Origin: an uncultured Trueperaceae bacterium
Lineage (GTDB): Bacteria; Deinococcota; Deinococci; Deinococcales; Trueperaceae
Assembly (NCBI GenBank): GCA_913057685.1
Contig: CAJXOA010000005.1
Location: forward strand, 1-64,000
DNA: 64,000 nt
Direction: 5' to 3'
Below are positions 21,291-32,308 of the stretch, one piece after another. Numbering within the stretch: the stretch's first letter is position 1; every line of letters starts with the position of its first letter. Made by a program: the position numbers and the translations under genes. The notes beneath the pieces are model-generated. The model saw nothing but the letters and a program-made list of their open reading frames with translations. It made no database searches and was not told the DNA's origin.

Positions 21291-22136
21291 CTACCGCACG
21301 GTCGGGGTCGTGCGCAGCGCACCGTCGCCGCCGGCGTGGCCGTCGAGGACGCTGCGTACGCGGGCGGCGTCGGCGAGCAGCGCCGCGGCGTCGCGGCCGT
21401 ACTCGAGGGTCACCCCCCACGGCGCGGTGCGGTCGAGCGTCCAGGCGAGCAGCGCGAGGTCGTCGTCGCGGAGCGTCGCGTGGGCGTCGTCGAGGGTGCC
21501 GTCCCCACGGGGGCGGGGGCCGGACAGGTGGATCTGGCGGACGCGGTCGAGGGGGAGGGCGGCGAGGTAGGCGTGCACGTCCGTGCCCTGCGCCGCGGCG
21601 CTCACCTGGGCGTGCGCCAGGTCGAGCAGCAGGCCGACGTCGGCGGCGAGGATGAGCTCGCGGAGGAAGCTGGGTTCGCACACGTGGGCGTAGGCGGGAA
21701 AGGCGGGCCGTTCCCCGTCCGGGGTGGGGTGCGCCTGGTCGTCGAGGTTCTCCGCGAGGAGGGGGACGTCCAGCGCCGCCCGGAGCGCGCGCAGCGTGGC
21801 GGTGGCGCGGGCGAGGACGACGTCGCGGGGGAGGGCGGGGGTGCGGGCCTGCATGCCGCCGTCGTAGCCGACCTCGGCGGCGGCGAAGCCGACGTGCACG
21901 CTGAGCCACGGCGCGCCGGTCGCCGCGAGGCGGGCGCGGGTGCGGGCGAGGGCGTCCCGGTGGTGGAGGGCATCGGGGTGCGCGAGCGACCAGTCCCAGA
22001 CGGGGACGTGCAGCCACAGGGGGCGGCCGGGGTAGGCGCCGGGGGCGTCGTCGGTCTTGGCGCCGCTCGTCTCGACCGCCCCATCCGGGAGGCGCCCCTC
22101 GCCGGCGAGCCGCCGGGCGAGGGGCGTGTCGTTCAG
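21291..22136 (-). CDS. DUF692 / MNIO-type multinuclear iron oxidase, last gene of the hydrogenase operon
   Basis: About 281 residues if read from CTG at 22134-22136 (FALNDTPL...). TIM-barrel blocks match DUF692: LWLHVPVWDWSLAHPDAL, LSVHVGF, LLAENLDD, EPSFLRELILAADVGLLLDLAHAQVSA, AYLAALPLDRVRQIHLSG, LDDAH and VTLEYGRD. The His/Glu/Asp residues that bind iron in MNIO enzymes (MbnB, TglH) appear kept. MNIOs modify cysteines of peptide substrates with help of a partner protein. There is no ATG or GTG in frame before 21899, where the GTG start would delete the barrel's first strands, so the true start is unclear: CTG, or a sequence error. It follows the BFD-like gene by 16 bases. Confidence 0.75.
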   Translation of the reverse strand: MNDTPLARRLAGEGRLPDGAVETSGAKTDDAPGAYPGRPLWLHVPVWDWSLAHPDALHHRDALARTRARLAATGAPWLSVHVGFAAAEVGYDGGMQARTPALPRDVVLARATATLRALRAALDVPLLAENLDDQAHPTPDGERPAFPAYAHVCEPSFLRELILAADVGLLLDLAHAQVSAAAQGTDVHAYLAALPLDRVRQIHLSGPRPRGDGTLDDAHATLRDDDLALLAWTLDRTAPWGVTLEYGRDAAALLADAARVRSVLDGHAGGDGALRTTPTVR

Positions 22137-22152: not shown

Positions 22153-22707
22153 TCAGTGCGCGTCCTTCGACCTCCGCAGCTCCTGCAGCAGGAGTTTCGT
22201 GACGGCGGTGTGGCAGGTGGAGCAGGAGACGTCGGTCCCGAGGAACGGCGCGAGCTCCTCGAAGCTGGTGACGCCGTGCTCGCGGATGGCGTCGCGGACC
22301 CGGGCGCTGCTGAGGGCGTGCTCTTCGCAGACGTCGTGGTGCTCGACCTCCGCCAGGTCCCAGCGGTCGGGATCGGCCTGGTACTCGGCGTAGCGCGCCT
22401 CCCAGAAGGTGCGTTCGAACTCGACCATGGCGACCTCGAACCCCTCCATGTCGTTGGCGAGGTCGATGCCGTGCGCGGCGAGGCGGGCCTCCTCCTCGAG
22501 GAACGGCACCTCGAGGTCGACGAGCAGGTCGACGGCGCGCGCGACGAACGGACCGAGTTCGTCGCTGCGTTCGCGCAGGCCGCGGATCCGTTCGGGGGTC
22601 CAGGGGTCGTCGGGGGTGTCGACCATCAGGACCGGTAGGACGAGGTCCTTGGCGTCGCCGACCGCGGCGACGGCCGCTTCGATGAAGGCGCGTTCGTTGC
22701 GGATCAC
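22153..22707 (-). CDS. BFD-like [2Fe-2S] domain protein in the hydrogenase operon
   Basis: 184 residues from GTG with GGAGG five bases upstream, 10 bases after hypE. Residues ~1-120 are acidic and helical with no known domain. The C-terminal ~60 (HHDVCEEHALSSARVRDAIREHGVTSFEELAPFLG...SCSTCHTAVTKLLLQEL) match the bacterioferritin-associated-ferredoxin fold. In the usual CxC...CxxC set the second cysteine is missing (VCEE), leaving three cysteines with His nearby as a possible substitute. It could donate electrons to hydrogenase maturation or serve the adjacent DUF692 oxidase. Function is inferred from position only. Confidence 0.65.
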   Translation of the reverse strand: MIRNERAFIEAAVAAVGDAKDLVLPVLMVDTPDDPWTPERIRGLRERSDELGPFVARAVDLLVDLEVPFLEEEARLAAHGIDLANDMEGFEVAMVEFERTFWEARYAEYQADPDRWDLAEVEHHDVCEEHALSSARVRDAIREHGVTSFEELAPFLGTDVSCSTCHTAVTKLLLQELRRSKDAH

Positions 22708-22717
22708 GGCGACCTCC

Positions 22718-23818
22718 CTAGCAGATCCGGGGCAGCTGCTCCTCGATGGGCATCTCGAGGATGCGGCGGCTGCCGTAGGCGGTTTCGACGATGGGGGTGC
22801 CGGCGGGCTCCTTGACGATGTCGCCGATGATCGCCGCCTCCCGGCCGTGCGGGTGGGCCTTCATCGCGCCGAGCGCGGCGTCCGCCTCGTCGGGGGGGAC
22901 GACCATCAGGACCTTGCCTTCGTTGGCGGCGAGGAGCGGGTCGATGCCGAGCATCTCGCTGACGTCCTCGACGACGTCGTGGATCGGGACGGCGACGTCG
23001 AAGATCCGCAGGCCCCAGGGGCGGTCGAGGACGATCTCGTTGCCGACCGCCGCGAGCCCCCCGCGGGTCACGTCGCGCATGAAGCGGACGTTCGGGGCGA
23101 CGTCGCGGACGCGGGCGATCAGGTCGGTGAGGGGCGCGACGTCGGACTCCAGCTCGACGCCGATGTCGAGCCCTTCGCGCCGCGACATGACGGCGATCCC
23201 GTGATCGCCGAGCGTGCCGTTGACGAGGATCTTGTCGCCGGGCCGGATCTCGCCGGCGCCCATGCGGACGTCGTCGGGGAGGAACCCGACGCCGGCGGTG
23301 TTGACGAACAGCCCGTCGCCCTTGCCGCGCTCGAGGACCTTGGTGTCCCCCGCGACGATGGCGACGCCCGCCTCGTCGGCGGTGGCCTTCATCGAGCGGA
23401 CGACCCGCTCGAGCTCCGCCATGTCGTACCCCTCCTCCAGCAGGAAGGCGGCGGTGAGGTAGGCGGGGGTGGCACCCATGACGGCGAGGTCGTTGACCGT
23501 CCCCGCGACCGCGAGGCGGCCGATGTCGCCGCCGGGGAAGAAGGTCGGCGTGACGGTGTGCGAGTCGGTGCAGAAGGTCAGGCGGCCGGGCCGGTTCTCG
23601 AGCACCGCGGCGTCGGTGAGCTCCGCGAGGGGGGCGTTGCCGAACTCCGCGACGAACAGCTCCTGGATGAGTTCGAGGCTGAGTTTGCCGCCCGACCCGT
23701 GCGCGAGGCGAACGGAGCCGTAGCGGGAGCGGCCGGCCGTCCCCGTCCCTTCGCTGGAGGCGGGAGCGTCGGCGGTGGGGGTCCCGGCGGTGGGGGCGTC
23801 GTCAGGCGACTTCGACAT
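22718..23818 (-). CDS. hypE: Hydrogenase maturation factor HypE
   Basis: 366 residues. HypE dehydrates the thiocarbamate carried on its C-terminal cysteine to thiocyanate, source of the CN ligands of the [NiFe] active site. The protein ends in PRIC (C366), the carbamoylated residue. AIR-synthase-like ATP motifs are present: RLAHGSGGKLSLELIQELF, FCTDSHTVTPTFFPGGDIG, GTVNDLAVMGA and MRDVTRGGLAAVGNE. The first ~33 residues are a Thr/Ala/Pro-rich extension. The ATG overlaps the hypD stop by 17 bases. Its normal partner HypF is not encoded in the window. Confidence 0.95.
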   Translation of the reverse strand: MSKSPDDAPTAGTPTADAPASSEGTGTAGRSRYGSVRLAHGSGGKLSLELIQELFVAEFGNAPLAELTDAAVLENRPGRLTFCTDSHTVTPTFFPGGDIGRLAVAGTVNDLAVMGATPAYLTAAFLLEEGYDMAELERVVRSMKATADEAGVAIVAGDTKVLERGKGDGLFVNTAGVGFLPDDVRMGAGEIRPGDKILVNGTLGDHGIAVMSRREGLDIGVELESDVAPLTDLIARVRDVAPNVRFMRDVTRGGLAAVGNEIVLDRPWGLRIFDVAVPIHDVVEDVSEMLGIDPLLAANEGKVLMVVPPDEADAALGAMKAHPHGREAAIIGDIVKEPAGTPIVETAYGSRRILEMPIEEQLPRIC

Positions 23819-25019
23819 GAATCTTCTCCTTGCCCATGCCGAACAGGTACCAGGCGCGGCAGGTGCCCTCGTGGCTCACCATGCAGGGGCCGTAGGGGGC
23901 GTCGGGGGTGCAGAGCTTGCCGAAGACGCCGCACTCGTCGGGACGGATCTGGCCGAGGGTGACCTCGGCGCAGCGGCAGCCCTTGGGGTGCTCCGCGCCG
24001 GCGAGGTCGACGGCCTCGAGGTGCCCCGCGAATCGGTCGGTGGCGCTGTAGTGGCGGTAGGCGGGCCGCAGCTTGTAGCCCGACGCGGGGATCTCCGCGA
24101 TGCCGCGCCAGCGGATGGGGGCGATCTCGAACACCTCGTCGAGTTCGCGTTTCGCCTTCTCGTTGCCGTCGTACTTCACGAGGCGGTTGTAGGGGTTGTC
24201 GATGCGGGGGGTGCCGTCGCGGATCTGTTCGAGCAGCGCGACGATGGAGACGAGCACGTCGGCGGGTTCGAAGCCGCCGGCGGCGCAGGCGATCCCCTGT
24301 TCGGGGAGGTGTTCGTACACCCGCAGGCCGGTGATGGTGACGGCGTGACCGGGAAGGATGAACCCTTCGATGTCGAACCCGTCGAGGGTGGGCAGCAGGT
24401 TCGTCGCGGGCGGCGTGTAGTAGTTCGCCTCGATGATGCTGAGGTTGTCGGGCGCGCCGCGCTTCAGCATGGCGGCGACGGCGACGACGGTCGTTTCGAA
24501 GCCGACGCTGAAGAACACGACCTCCTTGTCGGGGTTCTCCTTCGCGAGCGTCGCGGCGTCGAAGACGCTGTAGACGGTGCGGACGTCGCCGCCCTGCGCG
24601 CGCGCGTCGAGCAGGCTCATGCGGACGTCGCCGCGCCGTTCCCCCTCGAGGGGGATGCTGCCGGGGACCGCCAGCATGTCGCCGAAGCTGGTGACGATCG
24701 TGTCGGGGCGTTGCGAAAGCTGGATGGCGAGGTTGATGTACTCGTTGTCGCAGACGCAGACGGGACACCCGGGGCCGGCGAGCACCTCGACCGATTCGGG
24801 GATGAGGTCGCGCAGCGCGAAGCGACCCATCTCGTGCTCGTGCGTGCCGCAGATGTGCATGAGCTTGACGGGGCGCCCGATCTCGTCGGCGAGCGACGCG
24901 ATCTTGGCCTGCAGGCCGGCGACGACGTCGGCGTCCTTGTAGACGTGCGGATCGAAGGCGTCGTGCGCGTCCGTCGCCCGGGGCGGCGCCTCGTGCGTGC
25001 GGGGGTCGGCGTCAGGCAC
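23802..25019 (-). CDS. hypD: Hydrogenase maturation factor HypD
   Basis: 405 residues from GTG, overlapping hypC by eight bases. HypD, with HypC, builds the Fe(CN)2CO unit. Seen: MHICGTHEHEM, the redox pair GPGCPVCV, FFSVGFETT, and the C-terminal cysteines for the [4Fe-4S] cluster (KGCRCAEV, DECGVFGKLC, YGPCMVSHEGTC). A ~20-residue N-terminal extension (Pro/Asp/His-rich) precedes the conserved start. Confidence 0.95.
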   Translation of the reverse strand: MPDADPRTHEAPPRATDAHDAFDPHVYKDADVVAGLQAKIASLADEIGRPVKLMHICGTHEHEMGRFALRDLIPESVEVLAGPGCPVCVCDNEYINLAIQLSQRPDTIVTSFGDMLAVPGSIPLEGERRGDVRMSLLDARAQGGDVRTVYSVFDAATLAKENPDKEVVFFSVGFETTVVAVAAMLKRGAPDNLSIIEANYYTPPATNLLPTLDGFDIEGFILPGHAVTITGLRVYEHLPEQGIACAAGGFEPADVLVSIVALLEQIRDGTPRIDNPYNRLVKYDGNEKAKRELDEVFEIAPIRWRGIAEIPASGYKLRPAYRHYSATDRFAGHLEAVDLAGAEHPKGCRCAEVTLGQIRPDECGVFGKLCTPDAPYGPCMVSHEGTCRAWYLFGMGKEKIHVEVA

Positions 25020-25242
25020 GGGTCTCGGGCTCCAGGTACGTCTGGATGAGTTGCAGGTTGGCCTTCGCCTCCTCCGGTTCGATCCGGTCGATGGCGAAGC
25101 CGGCGTGGACGACGACCCACTCGCCGGGCTTCAGGTCCTCGACGAGGCCGATGAAGCAGTGCTGCTTCACGTCGCCGACCTTGATGAGGCAGGTGTCCTC
25201 GTCCATCACGTCGACGACCTCATGGGGGATGCCTAAGCACAT
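25012..25242 (-). CDS. hypC: Hydrogenase maturation chaperone HypC
   Basis: 76 residues. It begins MCLGIP; the Cys2 thiol (after Met removal the N terminus) carries the Fe(CN)2CO group to the large-subunit precursor. The small OB-fold core VGDVKQHCFIGLVEDLKPGEWVVVHAGFAIDRIE is standard. GGGAGACC lies before the ATG. Placed between hypB and hypD. Confidence 0.95.
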   Translation of the reverse strand: MCLGIPHEVVDVMDEDTCLIKVGDVKQHCFIGLVEDLKPGEWVVVHAGFAIDRIEPEEAKANLQLIQTYLEPETRA

Positions 25243-25279: not shown

Positions 25280-26044
25280 TCAGCGCGCGGCGGCGACGCC
25301 GGCGCCCGCAGGTGCCCCGGCGATGGTGCTGCGTTTCTCGGCCTGGCGTTCGCGTAGCCACGCGGTCCAGGCGTCCATCCCCTCGCCGGTGCGAGCGGAG
25401 GTTTCGAAGACGGTGGCGGACGGCGCCACCTTCCGCACGGCGTCGAGCGCCGCGTCGCGATCGAAGCCGACGGCGTCGGCGATGTCGATCTTGTTGATGA
25501 TGACCGCGTCGGCGTCCTTGAAGATGCGCGGGTACTTCAGCGGCTTGTCCTCGCCCTCGGTCGTGCTCAGCATCGTGACGCGCAGGTCCTCGCCGAGGTC
25601 CCAGGCGGCGGGACAGACGAGGTTGCCGACGTTCTCGATGACGACGACGTCGAGCTGGTCGACGTCGAGGCCGTCGACGGCGCGCGCGACCATCTCCGCT
25701 TCGAGGTGGCAGACGGCGCCGGTCACGATCTGGACCGACGGCGCGCCGGCCCCGTGGATGCGGACGGCGTCGTTGTCGGTCTCGAGGTCGCCGACGACCA
25801 CGCCGACGCGGAGGGTCTCGGCGAGGTCGGCGACGGTGCGTTCCATCAACGCGGTCTTGCCGGACCCGGGCGAGGAGACGATGTTGAGGACGAGGCGGTC
25901 GCCGAACCGCGTGCGGTTCTCGGCGGCGACGCCGTCGTTGTGCGTCATCAACGACTTCTGGACCTGGACGGTGCGGACGTCGCTGCCGTCGACGCCGCCG
26001 TGCGCGTGGAGCGCGACGTCGCGGGTGCCGGGGTTCGTGCTCAT
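25280..26044 (-). CDS. hypB: Nickel-insertion GTPase HypB
   Basis: 254 residues. SIMIBI GTPase that delivers nickel to the hydrogenase large subunit together with HypA. Walker A is SSPGSGKTALM; other blocks are VVGDLETDNDA, TGAVCHLEAEMV (metal-site cysteine and histidine), VVIENVGNLVCPAAWDLGE and INKIDIAD. The N terminus has neither the CxxCGC nickel motif nor a His-rich tail, so nickel storage is not expected; only a few scattered His (HAHGG) occur. Confidence 0.95.
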   Translation of the reverse strand: MSTNPGTRDVALHAHGGVDGSDVRTVQVQKSLMTHNDGVAAENRTRFGDRLVLNIVSSPGSGKTALMERTVADLAETLRVGVVVGDLETDNDAVRIHGAGAPSVQIVTGAVCHLEAEMVARAVDGLDVDQLDVVVIENVGNLVCPAAWDLGEDLRVTMLSTTEGEDKPLKYPRIFKDADAVIINKIDIADAVGFDRDAALDAVRKVAPSATVFETSARTGEGMDAWTAWLRERQAEKRSTIAGAPAGAGVAAAR

Positions 26045-26063: not shown

Positions 26064-26411
26064 TCACGTGACCTCGAGGTGGGCGAGCTGCAGCTCGCGC
26101 CCCTGCCATAGGTTCGCCGATGGCGTGCCGCAGGTGGGGCACAACGCCACGCCGTAGCGGTTGTCGAGTTCGAAGTCGGATTCGCAGGCGGCGCAGCGGG
26201 CCATCGCGGGCAGGTAGTCCACCTCGAGCCGGGCGCCTTCGGCCATCGTGCCGTCGCGCGCGCCTTGGAAGGCGAACTCGAGCGCTTCGGGCACGACGCC
26301 GGCGAGGGCGCCGATCTCGAGGTGGATGGCGTCGATGCGCGACGCCCCCTCCTCGCGGGCGGAGTGTTCGGCGAGGTCGAGCATGCTCAGCACGATCGAC
26401 ATCTCATGCAT
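26064..26411 (-). CDS. hypA: Nickel metallochaperone HypA
   Basis: 115 residues. It starts MHEMSI, where His2 binds nickel, and carries the structural zinc site CAAC...CPTC in the last third. Works with HypB. The ATG overlaps the protease gene hyaD by eight bases. Confidence 0.95.
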   Translation of the reverse strand: MHEMSIVLSMLDLAEHSAREEGASRIDAIHLEIGALAGVVPEALEFAFQGARDGTMAEGARLEVDYLPAMARCAACESDFELDNRYGVALCPTCGTPSANLWQGRELQLAHLEVT

Positions 26412-26988
26412 GCGCGAGCTCCTCCTGCGCGGCGATGGCGCCCATGACGATCGCTTCGGTGTCGAAGGGCTCGTCGGGGCGGATCGTGGGGTCGCGGTCG
26501 GTGACCGTGACGCCGTGCGCCTCGAGTTCGCGCAGGACGACGGTCGCGAGCGCGCCGAGGCGTTCGCGGATCGTTTCGCTCAGGACCGCACCGACCTCGC
26601 CGGTCTCGAACTCGAGGGGGCGGACGCCGATCGCGGTGATGGTGACGTCGGGCAGGTCGCCGTGGAGGTCCATGGCGGACAGCAGGTCGGGAACCTCCCA
26701 CTCGTGGGAGGAGAGTTTTCCGTAGCCGATTTCGCTGGGGACGTCGTCGCGCCCGAACCGGTAGACCTTCCCGGTGGGCGCGGCGACGGCGTCGACGAGG
26801 ACGACGTGGTCGTACTCGGCGATGAGGTTCAGCAGGTGCCATCCCAGGGTGCCGCCGTCGACGACGTCGACGTGGTCGGGGAAGGCGTAGCGGGTGCGCA
26901 GGTAGTGCATGAGGTGCACGCCCGCCCCCTCGTCGCCGTAGTAGACGTTGCCGACGCCGAGCACCAACAGCGGGCGTGCTTCGCTCAT
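26404..26988 (-). CDS. hyaD: Hydrogenase maturation endopeptidase (HyaD/HupD family)
   Basis: 194 residues. It cleaves the C-terminal extension of the large subunit after nickel insertion. The family N terminus LLVLGVGNVYYGDEGAGVHLMHYL carries the nickel-sensing Glu (DEG). VVDGGTLG supplies the Asp and SSHEWEVPDLL the His ligand. Located directly after the cytochrome gene and before hypA, as in hya operons. Its substrate's 16-residue tail is present in HyaB. Confidence 0.93.
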   Translation of the reverse strand: MSEARPLLVLGVGNVYYGDEGAGVHLMHYLRTRYAFPDHVDVVDGGTLGWHLLNLIAEYDHVVLVDAVAAPTGKVYRFGRDDVPSEIGYGKLSSHEWEVPDLLSAMDLHGDLPDVTITAIGVRPLEFETGEVGAVLSETIRERLGALATVVLRELEAHGVTVTDRDPTIRPDEPFDTEAIVMGAIAAQEELAHA

Positions 26989-26992
26989 GTCC

Positions 26993-27820
26993 TCACCCTT
27001 CCTTCGTCGTGTCCTCGGCCGCCGGTTCGCCCGGGGCCTCGAAGTCGTCGTCGGTCGCCTCGCGGGCGTCCGGCATGTCCTTGGCGGCGAATCCGGAGAT
27101 GATGCCTTCGACCAGCAGGTTACCGGTCCGCATGCTGTTCCAGACGGCCATGTAGATGTGCACCAGGGTGAAGAGGATGAAGAACCACATCGTCACGTGG
27201 TGCAGCGTGCGTACGTTGGCGATCCCGCCGAGGGCGGTCTCGATGGGCGACAGCAGGCCGGCGCTCCAGACCGCGACCCCGCTCTGCAGGTAGGGCGCGG
27301 CGATGAGGATGCCGGTGACGCTGATGATCAACAGCGCGGCGTACAGCGCGGTGTAGACCAGGTACTGCAGGGGGCCGTAGTTGCTGTACGTGAAGTGCGG
27401 GTGCTCGCGGCGCATCAGCAGGTAGAAGGCGAGCTGGTCGCGCCACGCCTTCCAGTTCACCAGGATGGGCGCCATCTTGAGTTCCTTGCCGAGGCCGAGG
27501 CGGCCGCGTTCGTTGATGAACAGGAACTGGTAGATGCGCGCGATGGTGAAGGCGAGCAGGATCCAGCCGGCGGCGACGTGCCACCCGCGGACCTGCGCGA
27601 GCGTGAAGGTGCTCGACGTGTCGCCGGTGAGGCTGCGCGCGAGGAACGGGTTGCCGAGGTAGATGCCGCTCAGCACCAACCAGATCAGCAACGCGTTGCG
27701 GATCCAGTGGGCCGCCCGGACGTAGCGCCCGAAGACGTACACCACCATGCGGGGGCGTCCCTCGCGTTCCAGCACCACCGCATCCTTGCGGGGCGGCAGG
27801 CGGCGGGTGTCGGTCGTCAC
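26993..27820 (-). CDS. hyaC: Hydrogenase b-type cytochrome subunit
   Basis: 275 residues from GTG, four bases after the hyaB stop. Four transmembrane helices with histidines placed for two b haems: RAAHWIRNALLIWLVLSGIYL, VRGWHVAAGWILLAFTIARIY, ALYAALLIISVTGILIA, and RTLHHVTMWFFILFTLVHIYMAVW. HyaC anchors the periplasmic enzyme and passes electrons from H2 to quinone. The loop with LGLGKELKMAPILVNWKAWRDQLAFYLL matches the family. The C-terminal tail is acidic and probably cytoplasmic. Confidence 0.94.
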   Translation of the reverse strand: MTTDTRRLPPRKDAVVLEREGRPRMVVYVFGRYVRAAHWIRNALLIWLVLSGIYLGNPFLARSLTGDTSSTFTLAQVRGWHVAAGWILLAFTIARIYQFLFINERGRLGLGKELKMAPILVNWKAWRDQLAFYLLMRREHPHFTYSNYGPLQYLVYTALYAALLIISVTGILIAAPYLQSGVAVWSAGLLSPIETALGGIANVRTLHHVTMWFFILFTLVHIYMAVWNSMRTGNLLVEGIISGFAAKDMPDAREATDDDFEAPGEPAAEDTTKEG

Positions 27821-27824
27821 GGCG

Positions 27825-29519
27825 TCACACCTCCACTTCGAAGCGGGCGATCTCCTCCCCGTCGCGGTTCAGCACGTGGACCGCGCAGGCGAGGCAGGGG
27901 TCGAACGAGTGGATGGTGCGGACCACCTCGAGCGGGCGCTCGGGGTCGCTCATGGGTTGCGTGACGAGGGCGGCCTCGTAGGCGCCGCGCTGTTCGCGGC
28001 CGTCCTTCGGGCTGGCGTTCCAGGTCGAGGGGACGACCGCCTGGTAGTTGGCGACCGAGCCGTTCTCGATGGTCAGCCAGTGGCTGAGGCTGCCGCGGGG
28101 CGCTTCGCCCATCGCCCACCCGGGCCCGTCCTTGGGCTCGTAGCGGTTGAAGAAGCGGTCGTCGCCGCTGGCGACGTTCTGCGTGAGGTTCGTGACGAGT
28201 TCGGGCACGTAGTCGGCGATGATCTTCGTCTCCAGCCCGCGGGCGACGGTGCGACCGACGGTGGAGTACCAGAAGTCGAAGGGGACGCCGATCGTGTCGG
28301 TGAAGTCGTCCATGACGGTCTGGACCTTCTCGTCGCCGGCGGCGTACGCCACGATGAGGCGCGCGAGCGGGCCGACCTCGACGGGTTGCCCGTCGTACCT
28401 CGGCGACTTGATCCAGCTGTAGCCGCCCTCGGTCTTGAGGGTGCCGTCCTCGTTGAGGCCCTCGTAGTTCGGGTTCGTCTGGCCGTCGAGGGGGTGCAGC
28501 GCCGTTTCGCCGCCCTCGTAGTCGTACCAGGCGTGCGCGACCTCCTCGGCGATCTTCATGGGGTCGACGTCGTGCACGGTGCTCAGGTCGCGGTCGAGGA
28601 CCAGGCCGGCGGGCAGGAAGTGCGCGCGCTGGTCCCAGGGCCGCTCGTCGAGGCTCATGGCGCCGAACGACATGTAGTTGCGCAGGCCGCCCCCTTCGCC
28701 GGCGAGCGCTTCGGTGCGGTAGCGCCGGGCGATGAGTTCGAGGTCGGGCAGGTAGGCGCGCTCGACGAAGTCGGCGGACTTCTGGATGAGGAACTGGTAC
28801 TCGGCGATGCGGTGCGCGTCGAGCGCGTCGCGGGCCGAGGTCATGCCGCCGACGATGAGGCTTTGCGGGTGCGGGTTCTTGCCGCCGAAGATCGCGCTGG
28901 CCTTCGCGCTCATGCGCTGCACCGCGAGGTTGTCGAGGTAGTGGCTGGCGATGATCAGGTTCTCTTCGGGGCTGAGGCGGTACTTGGGGTGCCCCCAGTA
29001 GCCGCCGGCGAACGGGCCGAGCTGGCCGGACTGCACGAACGCCAGGAGGCGTTCGGCGACCTGGGTGTAGTGCGACTCCGAGGCGTTGTACGGCGTGCGG
29101 TGGAACTGGTGCGCGATCTCGGTCGCGGCGACGGGGTCGGCGTCGAGGGCGCTGACGACGTCGAACCAGTCCATCGCGTGCAGTTGGTAGAAGTGCGTCG
29201 TGTGGTCGTTGATCGCCTGCGCCGCCCAGATGAGGTTGCGGAGCATGCGGGCGTTCGGCGGGAGGGTGACGCCGAAGGCGTCCTCGGTCGCTTCGACGCC
29301 GCGTTCGTAGTGGTGGAAGGTGCACACGCCGCAGATGCGTTGCGCGAACATGCCGACGTCCTTCGGGTCGCGGCCGCGCATGATGTTCTCGAACCCGCGG
29401 AAGGCGGTGCTACTGCTGGCCGCCTCCTCGACGACGTTGTTCGTCTCGTCGACTTCGATCTCGATGCGCAGGTGCCCTTCGATGCGGGTGATGGGGTCGA
29501 TGACGTGTTTCGCGGCCAC
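27825..29519 (-). CDS. hyaB: [NiFe]-hydrogenase large subunit
   Basis: 564 residues from GTG. Catalytic subunit for H2 oxidation. Nickel ligands are C63 and C66 (RICGVC) and C542 and C545 (DPCLACAVH). A 16-residue tail after H548 is the peptide removed by HyaD. Typical group 1 blocks: DPITRIEGHLRIEIEVD, GGYWGHPKYRLSPEENLIIASHYLDNL, and APRGSLSHWLTIENGSVANYQAVVPSTWNASPKD. It has no signal peptide and would be exported with the Tat-tagged small subunit. Confidence 0.96.
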   Translation of the reverse strand: MAAKHVIDPITRIEGHLRIEIEVDETNNVVEEAASSSTAFRGFENIMRGRDPKDVGMFAQRICGVCTFHHYERGVEATEDAFGVTLPPNARMLRNLIWAAQAINDHTTHFYQLHAMDWFDVVSALDADPVAATEIAHQFHRTPYNASESHYTQVAERLLAFVQSGQLGPFAGGYWGHPKYRLSPEENLIIASHYLDNLAVQRMSAKASAIFGGKNPHPQSLIVGGMTSARDALDAHRIAEYQFLIQKSADFVERAYLPDLELIARRYRTEALAGEGGGLRNYMSFGAMSLDERPWDQRAHFLPAGLVLDRDLSTVHDVDPMKIAEEVAHAWYDYEGGETALHPLDGQTNPNYEGLNEDGTLKTEGGYSWIKSPRYDGQPVEVGPLARLIVAYAAGDEKVQTVMDDFTDTIGVPFDFWYSTVGRTVARGLETKIIADYVPELVTNLTQNVASGDDRFFNRYEPKDGPGWAMGEAPRGSLSHWLTIENGSVANYQAVVPSTWNASPKDGREQRGAYEAALVTQPMSDPERPLEVVRTIHSFDPCLACAVHVLNRDGEEIARFEVEV

Positions 29520-29522
29520 GGT

Positions 29523-30773
29523 TCACTGCTCCTTCTTCGCGTCGCTGCGCGATTCGGTCGCGGCTTTGAGGGCGGTCGCGCCGGCGTGGATCGCGACGCC
29601 CGCCGCGGCGGCGCCGAGGGCGACGGTGCCGATGGTGTCGGCGTCCGCGTCGGTCCCGAACGGCGTGGAGTAGACGCGCCCGGCGAGGGGCACTTCGAAC
29701 GGCGTGAGGGTGTCCCAGAAGCCCGGTTCGCTGCAGCCGATGCAGCCGTGGCCGGCCATGATGGGCCAGGAGGCGCCTTCGTTGTAGCGGACGACGCCGC
29801 AGTTGTTGTACGCCATCGGGCCCTTGCAGCCGACCTTGAAGAGGCACAGCCCCGCCTTGAGGCCTTCGATGTCGGTCCAGCCTTCGACGAACTCGCCGGC
29901 GTCGAAGTGCCCGCGGCGTTCGCACTTGTCGTGGATGCGGTCCTGGTACGCCCAGAGGGGCCGACCGTAGGCGTCGAGCGACGGCAGGCGGCCGAACATG
30001 GCGTACTCGAGGATCGTGCCGACGACGTTGGTGCTGGAGACCGGGCAGGCGGGCAGGTTCACGACCGGCGTGCCGATGCCGCGCTGGCCGAGGAAGTCCG
30101 CGACGCCCATGGCGGTCGTCGGGTTGGGGCGCGCGGCGGGGATGCCGCCGTAGGCGCTGCAGGTGCCGGCGGCGATGACCGCGGCGGCGTGGCGGGAGAT
30201 GTGCTCGACCTTGTGGACGCCGGTCTCGCCGGTCGGGCCGATCGTGAGGTAGCCGCCGTCCTCGGCGACGGGGACGGAGCCCTCGAACACCGCGATGTAC
30301 TGCCCGTCGTAGCGTTCGATCGCGTCGGCGAGGACGTCCTCGGCCGCTTGGCCGGAGGGCGCCATGAGGATCTCGGCGTACTCGAGGCTGATCAGGTCGA
30401 GGAGCAGCTCGTCGGTGCCGGGGTTGGCGTTGCGGATGAGCGCCATGCTGTTGCCGCTGCAGGACTGCAGCTCCTGCCAGATGACCGGCAGGCGGGTGGC
30501 GACCTCCTGGGCGCGGGCGACGCGCAGGTCGAACATCGGGGGAAGACCCAGCGTCGCGGTCATCACCGCCGACATCTTGAGGAAGTCGCGGCGGCTGAGG
30601 CCACGTCGCTTGAGGACGTCGTCGAGCGTGACGTCGTGGACCGGATCCTGCGCTTCGAGCCGGTCGAGGTTCTTGTCGGCCTCCGCCGCGAGCCACTCGT
30701 AGTGTTCCTGGGTTCGTGCCTCCAGGTCGTGGTGGGTCGGGTCGGGGCCTGCGTGCCTACGTGCTGTCGTCAT
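29523..30773 (-). CDS. hyaA: [NiFe]-hydrogenase small subunit, Tat-exported, with altered proximal cluster ligands
   Basis: 416 residues from ATG with GAGGAG upstream. The Tat motif RRDFLK is at 61-66, behind an unusually long (~60 residue) charged N-region. The proximal [4Fe-4S] site has C105, C205 and C243, but the motif CxxC is CSGN (N108), so one expected cysteine is missing; CSGN is, from memory, a feature of actinobacterial-type group 1h enzymes. Distal and medial cluster ligands (HDKC, LCLF, GCKGP, NNC, SWPIM, GCIGC) are intact. A C-terminal transmembrane helix anchors it. First gene of the operon. Confidence 0.93.
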   Translation of the reverse strand: MTTARRHAGPDPTHHDLEARTQEHYEWLAAEADKNLDRLEAQDPVHDVTLDDVLKRRGLSRRDFLKMSAVMTATLGLPPMFDLRVARAQEVATRLPVIWQELQSCSGNSMALIRNANPGTDELLLDLISLEYAEILMAPSGQAAEDVLADAIERYDGQYIAVFEGSVPVAEDGGYLTIGPTGETGVHKVEHISRHAAAVIAAGTCSAYGGIPAARPNPTTAMGVADFLGQRGIGTPVVNLPACPVSSTNVVGTILEYAMFGRLPSLDAYGRPLWAYQDRIHDKCERRGHFDAGEFVEGWTDIEGLKAGLCLFKVGCKGPMAYNNCGVVRYNEGASWPIMAGHGCIGCSEPGFWDTLTPFEVPLAGRVYSTPFGTDADADTIGTVALGAAAAGVAIHAGATALKAATESRSDAKKEQ

Positions 30774-31204: not shown

Positions 31205-32308
31205 ATGACGCGACGTTCCCTTCCCCGCCTCCTCGCCCTCGCCGTGGCGATCGCCTCGCTCGCCGCGTTCCTCGGGACCGCCACCGCCCAGGACGACCCG
31301 GTCGACCCGCTGATCGCCCGCGCCCAAGCGCTGTTCGAACCGATCCCCGAGGGCCACGCCGAACTCGAGGACAACCCCTACAGCGAGGCCAAGATGGAGC
31401 TCGGCCGCATGCTGTGGTTCGACCCGCGCCTCTCCGCCTCGTGGGCGATCAGCTGCAACAGCTGCCACAACGTCGGGATGGCCGGCGTCGACCTGCAACC
31501 GAAATCGATCGGCCACAACTGGCAGCGCGGCGGCCGCAACTCCCCCACGATGCTGAACGCGGTGTTCAACATCGCGCAGTTCTGGGACGGTCGCAGCGAG
31601 GACCTCGCCGCCCAGGCGATGGGCCCGATCCAGGACGCCCTCGAGATGGCGAACACCCCCGAGCGGGCAGTCGAGACCCTGAAGAGCATGCCCGGGTACG
31701 TCGAGGCGTTCGAAGCCGCCTTCCCCGACCAGGCGGACCCGGTGACCTTCGAGAACGTCGCGCTGGCGATCGAGGTCTTCGAATCGACGCTCCTCACCCC
31801 CAACGCGCCGTTCGACCTGTTCATGCAGGGCGACGAGGACGCGCTGACGCAGGAGGAGAAGGACGGCTTCGAGCTGTTCGTCAACAAGGGCTGCGTCAGC
31901 TGCCACATGGGCATCAACATTGGCGGCACCGGCTACTTCCCGTTCGGCGTCGTCGAGCGCCCCGACGCGTTCATCCTCCCCGAGGACGACCTCGGCCGCT
32001 ACTCGGTCACGAACGTCGAGGCGGACAAGTACGCCTTCAAGTCGCCCAGCCTGCGCAACATCGAACTCACCCCGCCGTACTTCCACTCCGGCTCCGTCTG
32101 GAGCCTCGAGGACGCGGTCCGCATCATGGGCGACGCGCAGCTCGGCGCGACCCTGACCGACGACGACGTCGCCAAGATCACCGCCTTCCTGCGCAGCCTC
32201 ACCGGCGACCAGCCCGAGGTGACCGTCCCGGCCCTGCCGGAGATCACCGAGGACACGCCGCTCCCCGTCGCCGCCCCGCAGGAGGACGCCAGCGCCTCCG
32301 CCGACTGA
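31205..32308 (+). CDS. Di-haem cytochrome c peroxidase (CCP/MauG family)
   Basis: 367 residues with a Sec signal peptide (cleavage near TATAQ, residue 29). Two c-haem sites: C84-x-x-C87-H88 (CNSCH) and C230-x-x-C233-H234 (CVSCH). Family blocks NPYSEAKMELGRMLWFDPRLS, RNSPTMLNAVFN and FKSPSLRNIELTPPYFHSGSVWSLEDAV are intact. It would reduce H2O2 in the periplasm using cytochrome c electrons. The divergent promoter shared with the hydrogenase suggests coupled expression, perhaps protecting the enzyme when O2 is present. The tail after ~340 is disordered. Confidence 0.94.
   Translation: MTRRSLPRLLALAVAIASLAAFLGTATAQDDPVDPLIARAQALFEPIPEGHAELEDNPYSEAKMELGRMLWFDPRLSASWAISCNSCHNVGMAGVDLQPKSIGHNWQRGGRNSPTMLNAVFNIAQFWDGRSEDLAAQAMGPIQDALEMANTPERAVETLKSMPGYVEAFEAAFPDQADPVTFENVALAIEVFESTLLTPNAPFDLFMQGDEDALTQEEKDGFELFVNKGCVSCHMGINIGGTGYFPFGVVERPDAFILPEDDLGRYSVTNVEADKYAFKSPSLRNIELTPPYFHSGSVWSLEDAVRIMGDAQLGATLTDDDVAKITAFLRSLTGDQPEVTVPALPEITEDTPLPVAAPQEDASASAD

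Follow-up and report, generated by a model that had tools for sequence, protein, structure and literature searches.

The window analysed here, a stretch of 64,000 nucleotides from the genome of an uncultured Trueperaceae bacterium, encodes on its minus strand a [NiFe]-hydrogenase small subunit in which an asparagine is found in place of one of the four cysteines expected around the proximal iron–sulfur cluster. In such enzymes, catalytic bias and the response to O2 depend in part on the cluster beside the NiFe site. The locus raises the questions of whether this asparagine is an error or a genuine feature, to which kind of hydrogenase the protein belongs, and which cluster it would hold.

An intact operon for a membrane-bound uptake hydrogenase

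The small subunit (416 aa; 29523–30773, minus strand) was recognized by TIGR00391 with 410 bits (cut-off 179.5) and by PF14720, PF01058, and PF10518. It carries a twin arginine, R61-R62, within the sequence SRRDFLK (30588–30593, minus strand), with TIGR01409 and PF10518 both above cut-off, and a C-terminal hydrophobic helix at approximately residues 378–402 (29568–29642, minus strand; hydropathy peak at 384, helix predicted over 378–415) corresponding to a membrane anchor. It is followed on the same strand by the large subunit (27825–29519; PF00374), which starts with GTG and shows the motifs QRICGVCTFHH (L1) and SFDPCLACAVH (L2), by a b-type cytochrome subunit with four hydrophobic stretches (26993–27820; TIGR02125, 155 bits, cut-off 121.5), and by a HyaD/HupD-type maturation protease (26404–26988; PF01750, TIGR00072). 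The accessory genes hypA (26064–26411; TIGR00100), hypB (25280–26044; TIGR00073), hypC (76 aa; 25012–25242; PF01455), hypD (23802–25019; TIGR00075), and hypE (22718–23818; PF00586, PF02769), the latter of the AIR synthase type and ending in PRIC, complete the operon, also on the minus strand. The order small subunit, large subunit, cytochrome b, protease, and hypABCDE is intact, and from the small subunit to hypB it is kept across Trueperaceae. A Tat-dependent small subunit with a C-terminal anchor, a NiFe large subunit, and a b-type cytochrome in a single operon are the features of group 1 membrane-bound H2-uptake hydrogenases; three elements of this architecture (Tat signal, anchor, and cytochrome), already proposed in the preliminary description, are backed by the HMMs, the hydropathy, and the structure model.

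The twin arginine of this small subunit is placed much further into the sequence than those of HyaA and HoxK, after a long N-terminal stretch (residues 14–57; 30603–30734, minus strand) for which a helix is predicted with high confidence at about residues 20–50. This stretch was found in Trueperaceae and, in part, in the Asn-type enzymes of Sulfobacillus and Campylobacterota. Around the operon, a gene of the di-haem cytochrome c peroxidase/MauG family (31205–32308, plus strand) is oriented divergently from it, and a BFD-like [2Fe-2S] domain is present in a small protein encoded immediately 3′ of hypE (22153–22707, minus strand), possibly an Fe-S helper or an electron carrier. A further ORF (21291–21899, minus strand) matches the C-terminal half only of the MbnB/TglH/ChrH (DUF692) family and may be frameshifted or truncated.

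The host genome (2.29 Mb, 98% complete) contains a single [NiFe]-hydrogenase large subunit, the one of this operon, with hypF on a different contig. Two haem-copper oxidase subunits were detected in it, and no match to RuBisCO. From what is known of the family, this Tat-exported, membrane-anchored enzyme would split H2 on the outer side of the membrane, and its electrons would pass through three Fe-S clusters to the b-type cytochrome, the quinone pool and, in an aerobic host, finally to oxygen.

The proximal site consists of three cysteines and an asparagine

The small subunit was aligned with HoxK, HyaA, and HofK. Codons 105 to 108 read TGC AGC GGC AAC (CSGN), so that C105 (30459–30461, minus strand) occupies the position of Hyd-1 C17 and N108 (AAC; 30450–30452, minus strand) that of Hyd-1 C20, the fourth proximal cysteine; C205 (30159–30161, minus strand) and C243 (30045–30047, minus strand) correspond to the ligands C115 and C149. 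Both the residue numbers given earlier for these four positions and the asparagine itself were therefore correct. The ligands of the other two clusters are all kept, these being H281, C284, C310, and C316 for the distal one, and C325, C344, and C347, with P337, for the medial one. A search for a hidden cysteine in both subunits revealed no spare residue that could provide a fourth proximal sulfur ligand, as each of the nine small-subunit cysteines has its place (three proximal, three distal together with H281, and three medial) and the four of the large subunit are all NiFe ligands. In addition, the extra cysteines C19 and C120 of group 1d align with G107 and G210. As read from the alignment, then, the proximal site is made of three cysteines and N108, and is not the six-cysteine [4Fe-3S] site of group 1d. 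In this it differs from Cupriavidus necator HoxK and Escherichia coli Hyd-1, the closest solved sequences, which otherwise share with it the Tat signal, the anchor, and the cytochrome b.

An AlphaFold model of the small subunit, built on a 24-row alignment, had a mean pLDDT of 65.8, falling below 50 at residues 105–107 and across 304–366. Foldseek confirmed the hydrogenase small-subunit fold with rmsd values of 9–17 Å and, given this weakness of the model at the clusters, ligand distances were not taken from it.

The asparagine is conserved in Deinococcota

The simplest explanation for N108 would be a sequencing error or gene decay, by which a standard four-cysteine enzyme of group 1d or 1b would appear with a damaged codon. 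The one point in its favour is the 40–57% identity of the protein to standard enzymes. However, Asn was present in all the other Deinococcota homologues with a readable site (13 of 13, from three families), within the motif CSGN in the genus of the window and CTGN in the remaining ones, and the seven small subunits measured were 65–92% identical to that of the window over the mature region. Such invariance indicates that N108 is not a sequencing error, and the presence of Asn in other lineages, as well as the intact operon, also speaks against decay. Moreover, a single clade with the 1d enzymes HoxK and HyaA was rejected by the AU test on small plus large subunits (p = 3e-6). A 1d enzyme with an error at this codon, one of the outcomes that the preliminary description had named as fatal to its reading, is ruled out by Asn conservation and the AU test, and the probability that we leave to error or decay as a whole is close to nil.

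Assignment to a hydrogenase group

The CSGN motif had been attributed to actinobacterial-type (group 1h) enzymes, in which a non-cysteine ligand would provide O2 tolerance. The window protein and HofK, the solved 1h enzyme, do share a non-cysteine residue at the fourth position, and the Asp found there in group 1h is reported as a [4Fe-4S] ligand (PMC5364354, PMC7174314). However, the motif of HofK is CDGD, its sequence lacks a Tat signal and shares 28% identity with that of the window protein, group 1h is characterized by the lack of both Tat signal and anchor, which the window protein has, and the 1h motifs TSRICGICGDNH (L1) and SFDPCLPCGVH (L2) (PMC5364354) are absent from the large subunit described above. 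Motif, export signal, and identity rule out membership of group 1h, and a 1h-like enzyme is thus very improbable; CSGN belongs instead to group 2a, where it is found in HucS and in plasmid-borne 2a enzymes. HydDB does not separate group 1l from its neighbour 1h (PMC11519504), and the window protein, not 1h-like in its motifs, was compared to 1l through this kinship only, with a tree that included no named 1l sequence.

Two observations concern the 1h-like proteins themselves. The gene of HofK (L015:9963–11018, plus strand) carries the public annotation “hydrogenase expression protein HypE”, which is misleading and is shared by further 1h small subunits on plasmids. On the other hand, a second, 1h/1l-like small subunit encoded in another Deinococcota genome (G084, L112:1501–2373, plus strand) reads CDGC, with Cys where HofK has Asp.

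Phylogenetic analysis was carried out on a small-subunit alignment from which the N108 column had been removed, and on small plus large subunits, leaving out in the latter case the large subunit of one Arcobacter entry (L019) that belonged to a second operon. In the small-subunit tree, the window protein grouped with the other Deinococcota and with Sulfobacillia in one clade with support of 100/97, which was retained at 95/99 with both subunits. In the tree of both subunits this clade was nested in a set that also includes Campylobacter-type (1b-like) and Desulfurellales enzymes (99/95), apart from the Asn enzymes of Campylobacterota. Group 2a was split from the window protein by a 100/100 branch. 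A single clade with the Geobacter-type Asp enzymes was rejected (p = 2.4e-5), and one with the Campylobacterota Asn enzymes was rejected more weakly (p = 0.018), a value that is suggestive only because the groups were picked partly after the first tree had been seen. With the small subunit alone, placement beside 1b, beside the Campylobacterota Asn clade, or beside the Asp enzymes was not separable, and the AU test for the window protein with the Campylobacter-type sequences gave p = 0.30. As Asn enzymes fall in separate clades, the Asn state was probably gained or lost more than once, and the Asn type is probably not a single clade.

These features point to more than one group. With group 1f, where the fourth proximal residue is Asn or Asp, the window protein shares this kind of site combined with a Tat signal (PMC5364354). 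In contrast to the CTGC of group 1b, carried by all the sampled Campylobacter/Helicobacter-type sequences, the window protein reads CSGN. The Asn of group 2a is present, but so are a Tat signal and H281, and the protein lies outside the 2a clade. The enzyme is, provisionally, 1f by motif and near 1b by tree, on a reference set in which Geobacter-type Asp enzymes, and not those of Roseiflexus, Frankia, or Acidobacteria, represented 1f. The suggestion that it marks an unusual subgroup holds insofar as the Deinococcota and Sulfobacillia form a distinct, well-supported lineage that is not 1d; the combination of Tat signal and Asn, however, had already been published.

Asparagine sites in other hydrogenases

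In fact, Asn in a Tat-bearing membrane hydrogenase is already on record, and the window adds a further case, from Deinococcota. HupS of mesophilic verrucomicrobial methanotrophs carries a Tat signal and Asn for one of its four proximal cysteines, group 1f of Roseiflexus, Geobacter, and Frankia has Asn or Asp at the proximal position, and Asn occurs there in group 2a too (PMC5364354). The verrucomicrobial and 1f proteins are likened here to the window protein, as Tat membrane enzymes with Asn (Asp in some 1f) for one proximal cysteine, from their published description, the sequences compared being those of the Desulfuromonadota Asp enzymes only. A Cys-to-Asn change in the proximal site is also listed for Nostoc HupS (PMC4070099).

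One of the closest systems is the Sulfobacillus acidophilus plasmid hydrogenase Sulac_3618–3620 (CP003180), with a Tat-type small subunit (CDGN), a large subunit, a cytochrome b, and a protease. It falls in the same clade as the window protein, but identity is about 52–56% and the accessory genes are in a different order. The CAGN hydrogenases of Campylobacterota and Aquificota, such as that on a Sulfurimonas paralvinellae plasmid, also combine the Asn site with an exported small subunit and a cytochrome b, in a clade of their own. Two CAGN-type small subunits (L042 and L048), about 30 kb apart, were detected in contig JAHJGM010000009.1 of a marine biofilm bacterium. Finally, mycobacterial HucS, from the group 2a enzyme Huc of Mycobacterium smegmatis (PDB 7uur/7utd), carries the sequence GGACSGNTM here (7uur), with a CSGN identical to that of the window protein. 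Unlike the window enzyme, Huc has neither Tat signal nor anchor, its distal His is replaced, and it is octameric, with a HucM stalk (PMC10017518).

The distribution of the site was followed in a table of about 100 small subunits recovered from a scan of named genomes and plasmids; this sample is biased, as the best 80 matches of the scan were kept and they were found via two sequence patterns. Among the sampled sequences, Asn was found in Deinococcota and group 2a, as well as in Sulfobacillia (CDGN) and in a second, large type of hydrogenase from Campylobacterota and Aquificota (CAGN). Desulfuromonadota enzymes (CSGD) and HofK of group 1h (CDGD) have Asp instead, and the residue is Cys in the enzymes of the Campylobacter/Helicobacter type and of groups 1c, 1d, and 2b. 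The residue at this position goes together with others around it. In the Cys-type group 1 sequences of the same biased sample, E104 (35/35), Q212 (34/35), and P245 (34/35) are the rule, and H101 is present in most, whereas in the Asn and Asp sequences of group 1 position 104 is S or D, position 212 is P (A in one), and position 245 is V or A (M in one). By alignment, positions 101, 104, 212, and 245 are equivalent to H13, E16, Q122, and P151 of Hyd-1, near the ligands C17, C115, and C149 in the sequence. These second-shell changes are common to the lineage of the window, that of the Campylobacterota Asn enzymes, and the Asp lineage, and P at 212 is also found in group 2a. Since the second-shell residues co-vary across lineages, the pattern, although it comes from a biased sample and is no test of function, favours a concerted arrangement around the Asn over damage to one ligand.

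Which cluster would occupy the proximal site

The motif is thus known, but the type of cluster that it holds is disputed. In Huc, three [3Fe-4S] clusters were assigned on the basis of cryo-EM maps, the residue at the fourth coordinating position, and EPR spectra, in which a [4Fe-4S] signal was absent (PMC10017518). In contrast, the proximal cluster of Nostoc HupS is described in a review as [4Fe-4S], held by one Asn and three Cys (PMC6616624).

On balance we favour for the window protein a Huc-like proximal [3Fe-4S] cluster, its open corner next to N108, over a [4Fe-4S] cluster ligated by Asn, and give this analogy-based reading a probability of only about one half (0.52). In its favour are the invariance of N108 in Deinococcota with all the other ligands kept and no spare cysteine, and the replacement of E104, Q212, and P245 in the Asn and Asp lineages, with group 2a sharing P212; in addition, it follows the cluster assignment made for an enzyme with the same CSGN. 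Against it, the 2a enzymes that serve as the model are about 28% identical to the window protein and do not have the distal His, and Asp occupies the site in Geobacter-type enzymes and is reported to act as a [4Fe-4S] ligand in 1h. To our knowledge, a proximal [3Fe-4S] cluster has so far been reported for group 2a only.

The competing proposal, a proximal [4Fe-4S] cubane in which the side chain of N108 would ligate the fourth iron through its oxygen, as Asp does in group 1h, is also quite plausible, although it comes second. HofK and the Desulfuromonadota enzymes have Asp in this column. On the other hand, amide oxygen seldom serves as a ligand for Fe-S clusters and binds weakly. The Nostoc cluster has been described in these terms (PMC6616624), a small subunit of the Asn kind is reported to have contained intact [4Fe-4S] clusters (PMC4070099), and an Alteromonas hydrogenase in which Asn or Asp replaced the proximal cysteine still showed measurable H2 evolution (PMC4070099). 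However, the exact CSGN motif has been seen in one high-resolution structure, that of Huc, and there the cluster was modelled as [3Fe-4S].

If the proximal cluster is indeed [3Fe-4S], its potential would be higher, as argued for Huc, and catalysis in air would then be shifted towards H2 oxidation. More tentatively, and with less confidence than in either cluster type, it is conceivable that group 1 membrane-bound hydrogenases switched more than once between a four-cysteine site and an Asn/Asp site accompanied by fixed second-shell residues, and that the Asn enzymes carry a proximal [3Fe-4S] cluster tuned to scavenge low H2 in air.

The hydrogenase described here is exported, simple in its three-subunit make-up, and endowed with the CSGN motif, and would allow the dispute over the cluster to be tested in an enzyme other than the 833 kDa Huc complex; its operon represents a candidate H2-uptake enzyme in an aerobic family of Deinococcota.
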